Assembly (NCBI GenBank): GCA_903928915.1
Contig: CAIYSL010000032.1
Span: 1-64,000 of the forward strand
Direction: 5' to 3'
DNA from: an uncultured Syntrophobacterales bacterium
GTDB taxonomy: Bacteria; Desulfobacterota; Syntrophia; Syntrophales; UBA5619
DNA: 64,000 bases
Part shown: positions 14,758 to 43,904 of the stretch, piece after piece
Numbering within the stretch: the first letter of the stretch is position 1
Layout: each line of letters starts with the position of its first letter
The notes under the pieces: model-generated
What the model was told of the DNA's origin: nothing
What the model saw: the letters and a program-made list of their open reading frames with translations, nothing else
Database searches by the model: none
Program-made: the position numbers and the translations under genes

Positions 14758-14883
14758 GGTGAAGGCGTTTCTTCACTTTAGCATCCGAACACAAGGCATG
14801 TTATAAGACCGTGCACATATGAGCGACAGTTGACCCTGTTCCATCCCGTACCCATACTGGAGGATCATGGCATGGCTGAACAC

Positions 14884-14917
14884 AACCCCGTCTTTGATGA
14901 AAAGAGCGGGGTTTTTT
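14884..14917 (+). terminator. Intrinsic terminator after polA
   Basis: AACCCCG-TCTTT / AAAGA-CGGGGTT stem with a 5-base loop and one bulge, followed by T6. It lies about 125 bases after polA and just before the AT-richer accessory stretch. Confidence 0.85.
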
Positions 14918-14924
14918 GTTGAAC
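14918..14924 (+). other. Possible integron-cassette insertion point
   Basis: GTTGAAC fits the GTTRRRY core used by integron integrases. It is the last such core before the mrr cassette, directly after the polA terminator. It marks a possible left cassette boundary; a seven-base match alone is weak. Confidence 0.3.
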
Positions 14925-14974
14925 GCGCAGCAGGTGAGAGGTGTTTTATACCGATGCACAAAGGAGATAAATAA

Positions 14975-15904
14975 ATGGCCGTTCCAGATTATCAGAGCGT
15001 GATGTTGCCGCTTCTTCGATTTGCGGCACAAAAGGGAACTGAAATCTCTACCAGCGAAGCGGTTGAAGCTCTGGCAAAGGAATTGCGCCTCACTGAAGAC
15101 GATCTAAAGGAGATGCTCCCAAGTGGCATACAGGCAACCTTCGTTAATCGTATTGGCTGGGCTTCTACATACATGAAAAAGGCTGGATTGCTCGAAGCAA
15201 CACGGAGAGGATTCTACCACATTACCGATCGTGGGAAAGACCTCCTTAAGAAACAGCCCACGACCATTAACGTAAAACTACTCAAGCAATATCCTGAATT
15301 TCTTGAATTTCAACAACTCAAGGGTACAAGAAGCGGGGACAAATCTTCAGAACCTAAGGGGACATCAGACATTTCGACAGCAACGCCATCAGAGGCATTG
15401 GAAGCAGCTTATGAAAATCTCCGTGACGAATTATCTGATGAATTGCTCTCCCGCCTAAAGAAAATATCGCCTGCCTTTTTCGAGCGTGTCGTTGTGGAAC
15501 TACTTGTCAAGATGGGCTACGGTGGTTCACGTGCAGATGCTGGCAAGGCAATAGGTAGGAGCGGCGACGGCGGAATAGATGGAATCATAAAAGAGGACAA
15601 ACTCGGCCTTGATGTTGTGTACATTCAGGCAAAGCGTTGGGATAGCAATCCGGTAGGGAGCCCTGATGTCATGCAATTTGCAGGCGCACTCCAAGCTCAA
15701 AGAGCAAACAAGGGCATCTTTATTACTACCTCCAGATTCACTGATGATGCGCGCAGTTACGTTTCCCAAATCGGAAGTAAGATCGTTTTAATTGACGGCG
15801 AACAACTGACCAGTTTGATGATCGAGCATGATGTTGGCGTATCCACGGTTTCATTGTATCCAGTCAAAAGGGTTGATAGCGATTATTTTGAAGAGAGCAT
15901 CTAA
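14975..15904 (+). CDS. mrr: Mrr-type restriction endonuclease (probable integron cassette gene)
   Basis: 309 residues. The N-terminal 100 form a winged-helix Mrr_N-type domain; residues 160-300 carry the Mrr catalytic PD-(D/E)XK core with GDGGIDGII and the QAK element IQAKRW. The family cuts methylated foreign DNA (type IV restriction). AAAGGAG precedes the ATG. The gene is clearly AT-richer than its surroundings, no methylase partner is present, and its TAA stop is inside the R box of an attC-like site, so it looks like a transferred single-gene cassette. Confidence 0.92.
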   Translation: MAVPDYQSVMLPLLRFAAQKGTEISTSEAVEALAKELRLTEDDLKEMLPSGIQATFVNRIGWASTYMKKAGLLEATRRGFYHITDRGKDLLKKQPTTINVKLLKQYPEFLEFQQLKGTRSGDKSSEPKGTSDISTATPSEALEAAYENLRDELSDELLSRLKKISPAFFERVVVELLVKMGYGGSRADAGKAIGRSGDGGIDGIIKEDKLGLDVVYIQAKRWDSNPVGSPDVMQFAGALQAQRANKGIFITTSRFTDDARSYVSQIGSKIVLIDGEQLTSLMIEHDVGVSTVSLYPVKRVDSDYFEESI

Positions 15905-15973
15905 CAACCGCATTAACTCGGACTGGCAATCACGCTGTGCTCCATTGCCAACCGGTTATGCGGAGCGTTAGGT
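15899..15973 (+). other. attC-like integron recombination site
   Basis: 75-base imperfect palindrome that starts with ATCTAAC (RYYYAAC) and ends with GTTAGGT (GTTRRRY). Inside, CCGCATTAA pairs with TTATGCGG leaving one unpaired T, the extrahelical base typical of attC, and GGCAAT pairs with ATTGCC. The mrr stop codon is in the left core. All these match attC architecture; no integrase gene is in the window. Confidence 0.8.
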
Positions 15974-15976
15974 GAA

Positions 15977-16339
15977 GTGAGAAAGACACAGGCGATGGCA
16001 TTCAGTGACATTGAGTTTGATTACATCGACAAGATTGTCGGCAGGCTCTGCAGGCGTCGCTCACCTGCCCATTTGCACGACAAGATTCGAACGAGATACG
16101 AGATCAAGAACCATGACGTCATTGTCTTTGAGGAGCGACCACGATTCAATGCACGGGATGAGTGGTTGAGAATGGACTGCGCGAAGTTCAAATACAACAG
16201 AACGCGCCAGACATGGAAGCTCTACTGGATGCGCAGGGACAGGAAGTGGCATGCCTATGAGACTGAAAGTAGGAGCACTGGACTGGAAAGTCTTGTGCGC
16301 GAGGTAGACGCTGATCCCTATGGGGCATTCTTCGGGTAG
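15977..16339 (+). CDS. DUF3024-like hypothetical protein
   Basis: 120 residues from a GTG start; an ATG at 15995 would give 114. The pattern of an acidic N-terminal helix, then IRTRYEIKNHDVIVFEERPR, EWLRMDCAKFKYN and WKLYWMRRDRKWHAYE matches my memory of the DUF3024 family, basic proteins of unknown function rich in aromatic residues. It begins right after the attC-like site and may be the next cassette, but no second attC follows. Base use is like mrr, less GC-rich than the core genes. Confidence 0.75.
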   Translation: MRKTQAMAFSDIEFDYIDKIVGRLCRRRSPAHLHDKIRTRYEIKNHDVIVFEERPRFNARDEWLRMDCAKFKYNRTRQTWKLYWMRRDRKWHAYETESRSTGLESLVREVDADPYGAFFG

Positions 16340-16364
16340 ACCACTCAACCAGCGGCGGACCTCC

Positions 16365-16393
16365 TTGACATCCTTCATCCCCTTGGCTATACT
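16365..16393 (+). promoter_or_regulatory. Sigma70 promoter of mazEF
   Basis: TTGACA (16365-16370), exactly 17 bases, TATACT (16388-16393), ending 25 bases before the mazE ATG. One of the best promoters in the window, as is usual for autoregulated toxin-antitoxin operons. Confidence 0.8.
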
Positions 16394-16418
16394 TCGGCTA
16401 TCCATCGGAGGGGTAAAC

Positions 16419-16667
16419 ATGGTGACAAGAATTCAAAAATGGGGAAACAGCCAGGGGGTGCGGCTTGCGAAGCAGGTGCTCGAAGATGCCCAGCTTACGG
16501 TTGGCGAAGACGTGGATGTGACCACACGGGATGGGCTCATCGTCATCGCGCCGGCACGACGCATTCGGGGTAAACGGAGCCTGCGGGAGCTGGTGTCGCG
16601 CATACCCAAAGGCCACAAAGCCGGAGAAACGGATTGGGGCAAGCCGCAGGGCAGAGAGGTCTGGTAG
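16419..16667 (+). CDS. mazE: MazE-type antitoxin (AbrB/SpoVT fold)
   Basis: 82-residue antitoxin. The N-terminal 45 residues form the swapped-hairpin DNA-binding domain (TRIQKWGNSQGVRLAKQVLE, then VTTRDGLIVIAP); the C-terminal half is charged and should wrap the toxin. GGAGGGG lies before the ATG. The stop codon directly abuts the toxin GTG. It should bind its own promoter. Confidence 0.92.
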   Translation: MVTRIQKWGNSQGVRLAKQVLEDAQLTVGEDVDVTTRDGLIVIAPARRIRGKRSLRELVSRIPKGHKAGETDWGKPQGREVW

Positions 16668-17003
16668 GTGAAGGCGCACATTCCGCAGAAAGGCGATTTC
16701 ATCGCCCTGACCTTCGACCCTCAGTCGGGCCATGAGCAGAAAGGGCGTCGTCCTGCCCTGGTTGTGAGCAACACCCTGTTTAACGAGCAAACCGGTCTTG
16801 CCATCGTCTGCCCCCTCACCACCACCGATCGCGGCTACCCCTTCCATGTGGCGGTCGCCGACAACTCGTGCGTGAAGGGGTTTGTGATGGTTGAGCAGGT
16901 GAAGGCCGTCGATTACCGGGCGCGGCAGGCGAGACTCATCGGAAGGGCTGCGGACGACCTCCTCGCCGAAGTGTTGTCGATTCTCGACGCCTGTATCTAC
17001 TGA
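16668..17003 (+). CDS. mazF: MazF/PemK-type mRNA interferase toxin
   Basis: 111-residue endoribonuclease toxin of the MazF/PemK fold. Visible motifs are PQKGDFIALTFDPQSGHEQKGRRPALVVSN with the catalytic arginine, TTDRGYPFHV, and FVMVEQVKAVDYRARQA. It starts at GTG, zero bases after the mazE stop, so synthesis is coupled and likely lower than that of the antitoxin. With mazE it forms a complete module beside the mrr cassette. Confidence 0.93.
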   Translation: MKAHIPQKGDFIALTFDPQSGHEQKGRRPALVVSNTLFNEQTGLAIVCPLTTTDRGYPFHVAVADNSCVKGFVMVEQVKAVDYRARQARLIGRAADDLLAEVLSILDACIY

Positions 17004-43789: not shown

Positions 43790-43820
43790 AAAAAACCCCG
43801 CTCCTTTCCAGATTACGGGG
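43790..43820 (-). terminator. Attenuator-like terminator in yeeE leader
   Basis: Minus strand stem CCCCG/CGGGG (43820-43816 with 43800-43796), 15-base loop, then six T. It lies between the candidate promoter (43905-43933) and the yeeE start (43723), so it may terminate early and regulate the transporter, or end an older transcript from upstream. Confidence 0.45.
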
Positions 43821-43904
43821 GTATCGGTCGGCCGGTCCATCGCGCCCTCCGTCATGATTTTTTCGGACGGAATTGGTTCCGCGGGCTATCCTTTTCAAGT
43901 AAGG

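Follow-up and report, generated by a model that had tools for sequence, protein, structure and literature searches.

An mrr integron cassette at a truncated attI motif behind a dispersed leader element in a Syntrophales genome

We analyzed a stretch of 64,000 nucleotides (the window) from an uncultured Syntrophobacterales bacterium and found that its mrr gene is, with near certainty, an integron gene cassette. The gene ends in a genuine attC site and is preceded by the left part of an attI motif, which in turn follows a leader element with many copies in the order. As the best explanation, which we consider likely, the cassette would have been delivered in trans to a leader-attI site that belongs to a dispersed platform, and the junction was later altered by a deletion. 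The features of the locus are listed in Table 1.

Table 1. Features of the mrr locus (positions in the window).
Feature	Position	Strand	Details
Conserved leader, ~90 bp	14828-14917	+	nhmmer 69.6 bits, R3 covariance model 83.4 bits
Leader promoter-like hexamers	14830-14858	+	TTGACC-N17-CATACT; consensus match only
Leader GGAGG and start codon	14859-14863; ATG 14867	+	
Leader reading frame, 35 codons	14867-14974	+	open through hairpin and attI remnant
Leader hairpin	14886-14917	+	CCCCG..CGGGG-TTTTTT
attI, left remnant	14930-14955	+	AGGTGTTTTATAC 14939-14951, ACCGAT 14950-14955; truncated, presumably by a 20-bp deletion
mrr gene cassette	14953-15967	+	homology to mrr cassettes elsewhere spans 14953 to 15972
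mrr, 309 aa	14975-15904	+	Mrr_N and Mrr_cat, Pfam 104.6 and 127.7 bits; PADLOC mREase_IV, E 1.5e-96
attC of mrr cassette	15899-15973	+	R'' ATCTAAC 15899-15905, R' GTTAGGT 15967-15973
DUF3024 gene, PADLOC candidate PDC-S43	15977-16339	+	Pfam 107.5 bits, PADLOC 114.3 bits; alternative ATG 15995
Possible left half of DUF3024 attC	16343-16361	+	ACTCAAC then CAGCGGCGGACC; by eye, tentative
MazE/MazF-type toxin-antitoxin pair	16365-17003	+	genes 16419-16667 and 16668-17003; own sigma70-like promoter

The element at the 3' end of mrr has the architecture that the preliminary description had assigned to it. An RYYYAAC R'' core, a GTTRRRY R' core, complementary inner boxes and an extrahelical base are all present; in sequence order the site reads ATCTAAC AACCGCATTAACTCGGACTGGCAATCACGCTGTGCTCCATTGCCAACCGGTTATGCGGAGC GTTAGGT, and the stop codon of mrr (TAA, 15902-15904) does lie inside the left core. 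Folding of both strands resulted in a z-score of about -4.3 relative to dinucleotide shuffles (0 and 1 of 200 shuffles were equally good). When the window was scanned exhaustively for boxes and arms, the site ranked first with a score of 47, the next unrelated site reaching 40. A simple scanner for attC, written by hand, proved too stringent for the relatives and was replaced by covariance models. For the model search that had been suggested as a check, 14 attC sites from annotated class 1 plasmid integrons were chosen in order to avoid circularity. This independent model yielded two matches in the 64 kb, the best of which was the site at mrr (21.0 bits, E = 0.0075); the second scored 12.1 bits. 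A wider model, whose training set also takes in environmental attC sites and among them this one, gave 50.3 bits. In an Rfam search at the gathering threshold a tRNA was the sole match.

The palindrome forms a strong hairpin immediately 3' of the stop codon, as would be expected if it were a terminator or some other mrr-linked repeat instead of an attC. We regard this as extremely improbable, since the independent attC model matches the palindrome, its boundary boxes fit attC, and copies with 75-95% identity occur without mrr, regularly spaced in arrays. The preliminary description had also named a palindrome conserved with mrr in genomes never containing integrons as evidence against an attC; across the order, intI above the cut-off was found in 59 and attC in 122 of 155 genomes.

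The protein itself is ordinary. It shares Mrr_N, Mrr_cat and the PADLOC family mREase_IV with the Mrr type IV restriction endonucleases, and the two domains cover its full length. With both domains intact, we take it to be a methyl-directed type IV restriction endonuclease. A relative with a solved structure was sought by sequence and none was found. The gene is indeed AT-rich: its GC content is 46.7%, whereas polA has 66.7% and the whole window 66.2%. Relatives with up to 93% identity occur in metagenome-assembled genomes (MAGs) of Syntrophaceae, Spirochaetes, Gammaproteobacteria, Hydrogenedentota, Verrucomicrobia, Nitrospirae and others, where contamination may affect the taxon of any single MAG.

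The surroundings of these relatives are those of a cassette. The DNA similarity begins at 14953-14961 in many loci, and in L014, L017-L019, L021 and L031 it extends to 15969-15973 and thus comprises the gene together with its attC. An upstream attC ends right at the mrr start region in L019, L021, L022, L025, L031, L032 and L049, in the first six of these 19 nt 5' of the start; the arrangement in L024 is the same within one base, and that in L042 fits weakly. In L019, L021, L022, L024, L025, L031 and L032 mrr is located between attC sites. Locus L025 contains a full array of intact intI, two attC sites, mrr and another attC, and its IntI is 58.9% identical to the integrase from the genome of the window over 336 aa. 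The earlier assignment of mrr to an integron-type cassette is supported by the independent attC model, by relatives from other phyla that are flanked by attC, and by the presence of an intI in this genome. A search of the open-access literature for papers on Mrr cassettes found nothing relevant.

The left edge of the cassette differs from the one initially suggested. In many loci of other genomes homology to the mrr cassette starts at 14953-14954, and intact mrr cassettes elsewhere carry GTTAGATGCA at this edge. The heptamer GTTGAAC exists at 14918, where the preliminary description had placed the edge, but lies 35 bases away from the start of homology at 14953 and was therefore rejected. Intact relatives read ...GTTAGATGCACAAAGGAG and the window reads ...TTTTATACCGATGCACAAAGGAG. 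The intact crossover core (G|TTRRRY) is absent: the window has TACC|GATGCAC where intact cassettes have GTTA|GATGCAC. Hence the original first cassette bases TTA were lost, while GAT (14953-14955) is common to attI and the cassette. In locus L013, which encodes a 93% identical Mrr, the left edge is ...AGCACCGATCCATATAAACAATGTTAGATGCACAAAGGAG, about 200 bases 3' of a C-terminal intI remnant. This junction is intact and is composed of attI-ACCGAT|CCATATAAACAATGTTAGAT|GCACAAAGG-mrr. Removal of CCATATAAACAATGTTAGAT, i.e. the 20 bases between two copies of GAT, results in ACCGATGCACAAAGGAG, which is exactly the sequence of the window at 14950-14959. As judged by this comparison, the junction in the window would be an L013-type attI/cassette junction after a 20-bp deletion between the GAT copies.

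A sequence matching the left part of attI is present in the window; the right part, including the crossover point, is lost. The 13-mer AGGTGTTTTATAC at 14939 fits the upstream motif of attI sites following codirectional intI genes (L211-L221) and is also in line with L012, L013 and L017. A matrix was built from ten attI sites located after codirectional intI genes. On both strands of the window the 13-mer was the best match (21.4 bits, next 14.4 bits), it remained first after the three closest training sites had been dropped, and only 2 of 2.42 million positions in the pool of other loci scored as high; these figures are post hoc, as the motif was spotted only after inspection of the window and no test had been planned beforehand. 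In L215-L217 and L219 the codirectional intI gene precedes CCGATCCATATAAACAATGTT, after which a cassette follows, and the same 21 bases are found directly 5' of mrr in L013. A palindrome of the type GGGATATTATACCGATCCAGATAATATCCC was observed within ~40 bases after codirectional intI genes in L215-L221 and in L013. It shares the center CCGATC with the attI end and is possibly a regulatory or integrase-binding site. A conserved peptide FYADPYK was considered as an explanation for the palindrome TTTTATGCCGATCCATATAAAA and is less likely than a DNA site, since in some copies (L338, L334) the palindrome is preserved by matched changes in both arms.

The preliminary description had left a choice between integrase-driven insertion at a secondary site and a relict chromosomal integron. 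In the former case a single cassette would have entered an attG site next to the terminator. Cassettes are known to insert at non-classical attG sites (Loot et al. 2024, cited in PMC11023631), and the mrr cassette does lie outside any integrase-bearing array. However, the left junction lacks the GTTA of the cassette, the sequence upstream of the junction matches an attI remnant instead of being an arbitrary target, and L013 retains an intact attI junction. A fresh, clean insertion is unsupported because the cassette's own TTA would remain at the left junction, yet it is absent. Insertion at a secondary site is thus very unlikely. The relict part of the proposal is supported: the locus would be a frozen attI/cassette relict.

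The hairpin upstream of the attI remnant had been taken for a housekeeping terminator directly preceding the cassette. The hairpin exists, but it is the 3' end of a dispersed leader and does not belong to polA. For the empty-site comparison that had been suggested, twelve relatives were read at polA; beyond this gene none of them is syntenic, and all have a different downstream region. Searches with nhmmer and R3 found seven leader copies in the genome of the window and about 78 in 40 of the 155 genomes of the order, patchily distributed over families; the maximum of nine copies was observed in one genome (G151). A second copy in the window (43790-43883, minus strand, R3 66.9 bits) has no recognizable attI after it, and its frame is open for 172 codons. 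The repeat at 14826-14924 was at one stage interpreted as an unrelated small RNA, which was revised as other copies precede attI and attC.

A protein-coding micro-gene was rejected as a general rule for the leader, since the codons past M-D-W-L are not conserved among the copies and many copies stop at once. In the window the TAA of the leader frame touches the ATG of mrr (TAAATG), as expected for translational coupling, an arrangement that is not general among the copies. Transcription might end at the hairpin and its T run and so not reach mrr. The GGAGG motif may fall outside the transcript because it is so near the -10-like hexamer.

In order to assess the pairing of leaders and attI, we searched a sample of 61 leaders with enough sequence for the 16-base core CCGATCCATATAAACA within 220 nt after the leader. 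With up to two mismatches the core was found after 10 of the 61 leaders, compared to none in both the upstream control and the shuffled sequences; with up to four mismatches the numbers were 16, 1 and 0, respectively. About 45 of the 61 (roughly three quarters) have no recognizable core and several leaders precede ordinary genes, e.g. an HU-like gene on contig C105 of the same genome as the window; the leader may therefore be a general regulatory element that is used with attI only sometimes. The 21-mer CCGATCCATATAAACAATGTT is identical after the leader in L244/L263 and after intI in L013, L215, L216, L217 and L219. An intI profile search of G014, the genome of L244/L263, found none.

The attC sites near leaders are strongly biased in orientation. 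All 18 matches are on the strand of the leader and none is on the opposite strand; with respect to the nearest leader 15 are located downstream at 0.3-1.9 kb and three upstream, two of the latter (L316, L318) being also downstream of another leader. If the four quadrants were equally likely, the probability of this bias would be ~1e-7 by our own estimate, which is not a tool output. A clear order of leader, gene and attC was found in L263, L317, L319 and on contig C68 of the same genome (L354), with the attC 9-22 nt past the stop codon. A full-length integron integrase was sought in about 500 kb around leaders; none was found, just weak or short partial matches (25-49% identity). The close genomes are all draft MAGs, and gaps in the assembly can account for the lack of an intI.

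These data bear on another history, in which the locus is an ordinary degraded chromosomal integron (intI-attI-mrr-DUF3024) whose intI was deleted and which was joined by a resident leader by chance. The order is rich in codirectional intI-attI units, and C-terminal intI remnants are located upstream of mrr in L013, L017 and L027, both of which would fit. Against it, the same joining of leader and attI core is seen, with no intI nearby, in further genomes from several families (L263, L277, L315, L317, L325, L326, L335); being recurrent, it is no local accident. We consider chance joining unlikely and prefer delivery in trans to a leader-attI site.

Several of the proteins encoded behind leaders are related to defense. 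Besides Mrr in the window they comprise a second Mrr-like nuclease (L332), Thoeris ThsB (L316), the defense candidate PDC-S11 (contig C68 of the same genome) and an SMC-like ATPase that weakly matches several defense families (L326). The ThsB-like TIR gene (L316:8377-8949, G154:C72) directly follows its leader, and the same contig stretch contains another leader and two attC sites. On comparison of these sites, dispersed leader-attI sites without integrase that hold single, often defense-related cassettes are the probable reading.

The preliminary description had asked for a search of the genome for intI and other attC sites. One IntI exceeded the curated cut-off (C68:3167-4123, 414.7 bits, cut-off 265); one attC lies beside it and further attC sites are located on contigs C18, C52 and C78. 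No intI-like match was found in the window. The only clear integron integrase of the genome, on C68, is of a divergent type of ~445-446 aa, unlike the codirectional type whose attI this one resembles. Compared with the usual IntI start it is extended at the N-terminus by ~100 aa (L010:2834-4171), and versions of 430-530 aa occur in many relatives of the order. Beside it a divergent BrnT/BrnA-like pair with an attC was observed; an IS3-type element comes next, and then the contig ends. A small ORF and a MazF-like ORF followed by an attC are located near the end of contig C52 (L161:562-1174) and form a second toxin-antitoxin-like cassette in this genome.

The mrr cassette was described as solitary, which holds only in part: the gene that follows has cassette relatives, and the intI and further attC sites are present elsewhere in the genome. 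Homologues of this DUF3024 gene carry an attC right after their stop codon in L186 and L189. By this analogy the gene is probably a second cassette whose own attC was lost or truncated. The attC model gave no match over the region after it. Papers on DUF3024 in integrons were sought in the open-access literature and nothing relevant was found. Relatives of the MazEF pair in L115 and L118 adjoin attC remnants, and the promoter of the pair in the window agrees with the sigma70 consensus in 11 of 12 positions.

Based on these comparisons we propose the following history. An integron integrase acting in trans would have inserted the mrr cassette at an attI behind a leader without an adjacent integrase. 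A later 20-bp deletion between the two GAT copies would have removed the crossover GTTA and thereby fixed the cassette in place. Beyond it lie the DUF3024 cassette, whose attC would have decayed, and the MazEF pair. Transcription of mrr would come from upstream, probably from the leader, and the predicted Mrr would be expected to cleave modified DNA that enters the cell. The leader-attI unit would be one of many copies in the order, each of them able to hold a cassette delivered in trans.

The mrr cassette resembles those of class 1 and sedentary chromosomal integrons in its RYYYAAC...GTTRRRY cores, the folded site, the stop codon in R'', the promoterless gene with its own ribosome site and the attC-flanked relatives. 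It differs in that it lies outside any detectable intI array and that its left crossover point is deleted. IntegronFinder distinguishes complete integrons, In0 and CALIN and has no class for attI without intI (PMC9024848). Like CALIN and single-attC elements the locus has an attC without a neighboring integrase, and it adds a recognizable attI and a shared leader upstream; for CALIN, which require at least two attC sites, the locus has one by the model and a second that is at most a possible half. Codirectional ('reverse') integrons are typical of Spirochaetota (PMC9668308) and share the attI end CCGATCCATATAAACAATGTT; there attI follows intI, whereas here it follows the leader. In attI1 of class 1 integrons, ORF-11 mediates translational coupling; GGAG and the ATG of a short frame through attI that ends at the first cassette are found there as well (PMC8876359), and the leader frame ending at the ATG of mrr recalls this coupling. 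The minimal core of attI1 is AAACAAAGTTRRRY (PMC12901181) compared to AAACAATGTTRRRY in the window. Unlike attI1/ORF-11, the leader has a strong hairpin with a T run inside the frame, no adjacent intI and many copies per genome.

Defense genes in integron cassette arrays are already known (PMC12444791), and the window, taken by itself, shows a degraded example of something familiar. The novelty rests in the set of leader-attI sites. In the open-access literature we found no description of orphan or multiple attI, or of dispersed attI sites without integrase behind a shared leader, and such sites look like an undescribed way of holding single defense genes. More tentatively, and at somewhat less than even chances, many genomes of the Syntrophales type may possess a distributed integron, with numerous scattered leader-attI expression sites without integrase in place of one array. 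Each site could then carry a single cassette or a few, commonly with anti-phage genes, that a trans-acting integrase would have brought in, a picture to be taken with the same reserve. In a classical integron good expression is limited to the cassettes nearest attI. If the proposal is true, many attI sites with leaders of their own would allow several captured cassettes, stored around the chromosome, to be expressed at once. Such sites would be overlooked by search tools in which an integron is defined through intI and attC clusters, and they would be places to seek new defense genes.
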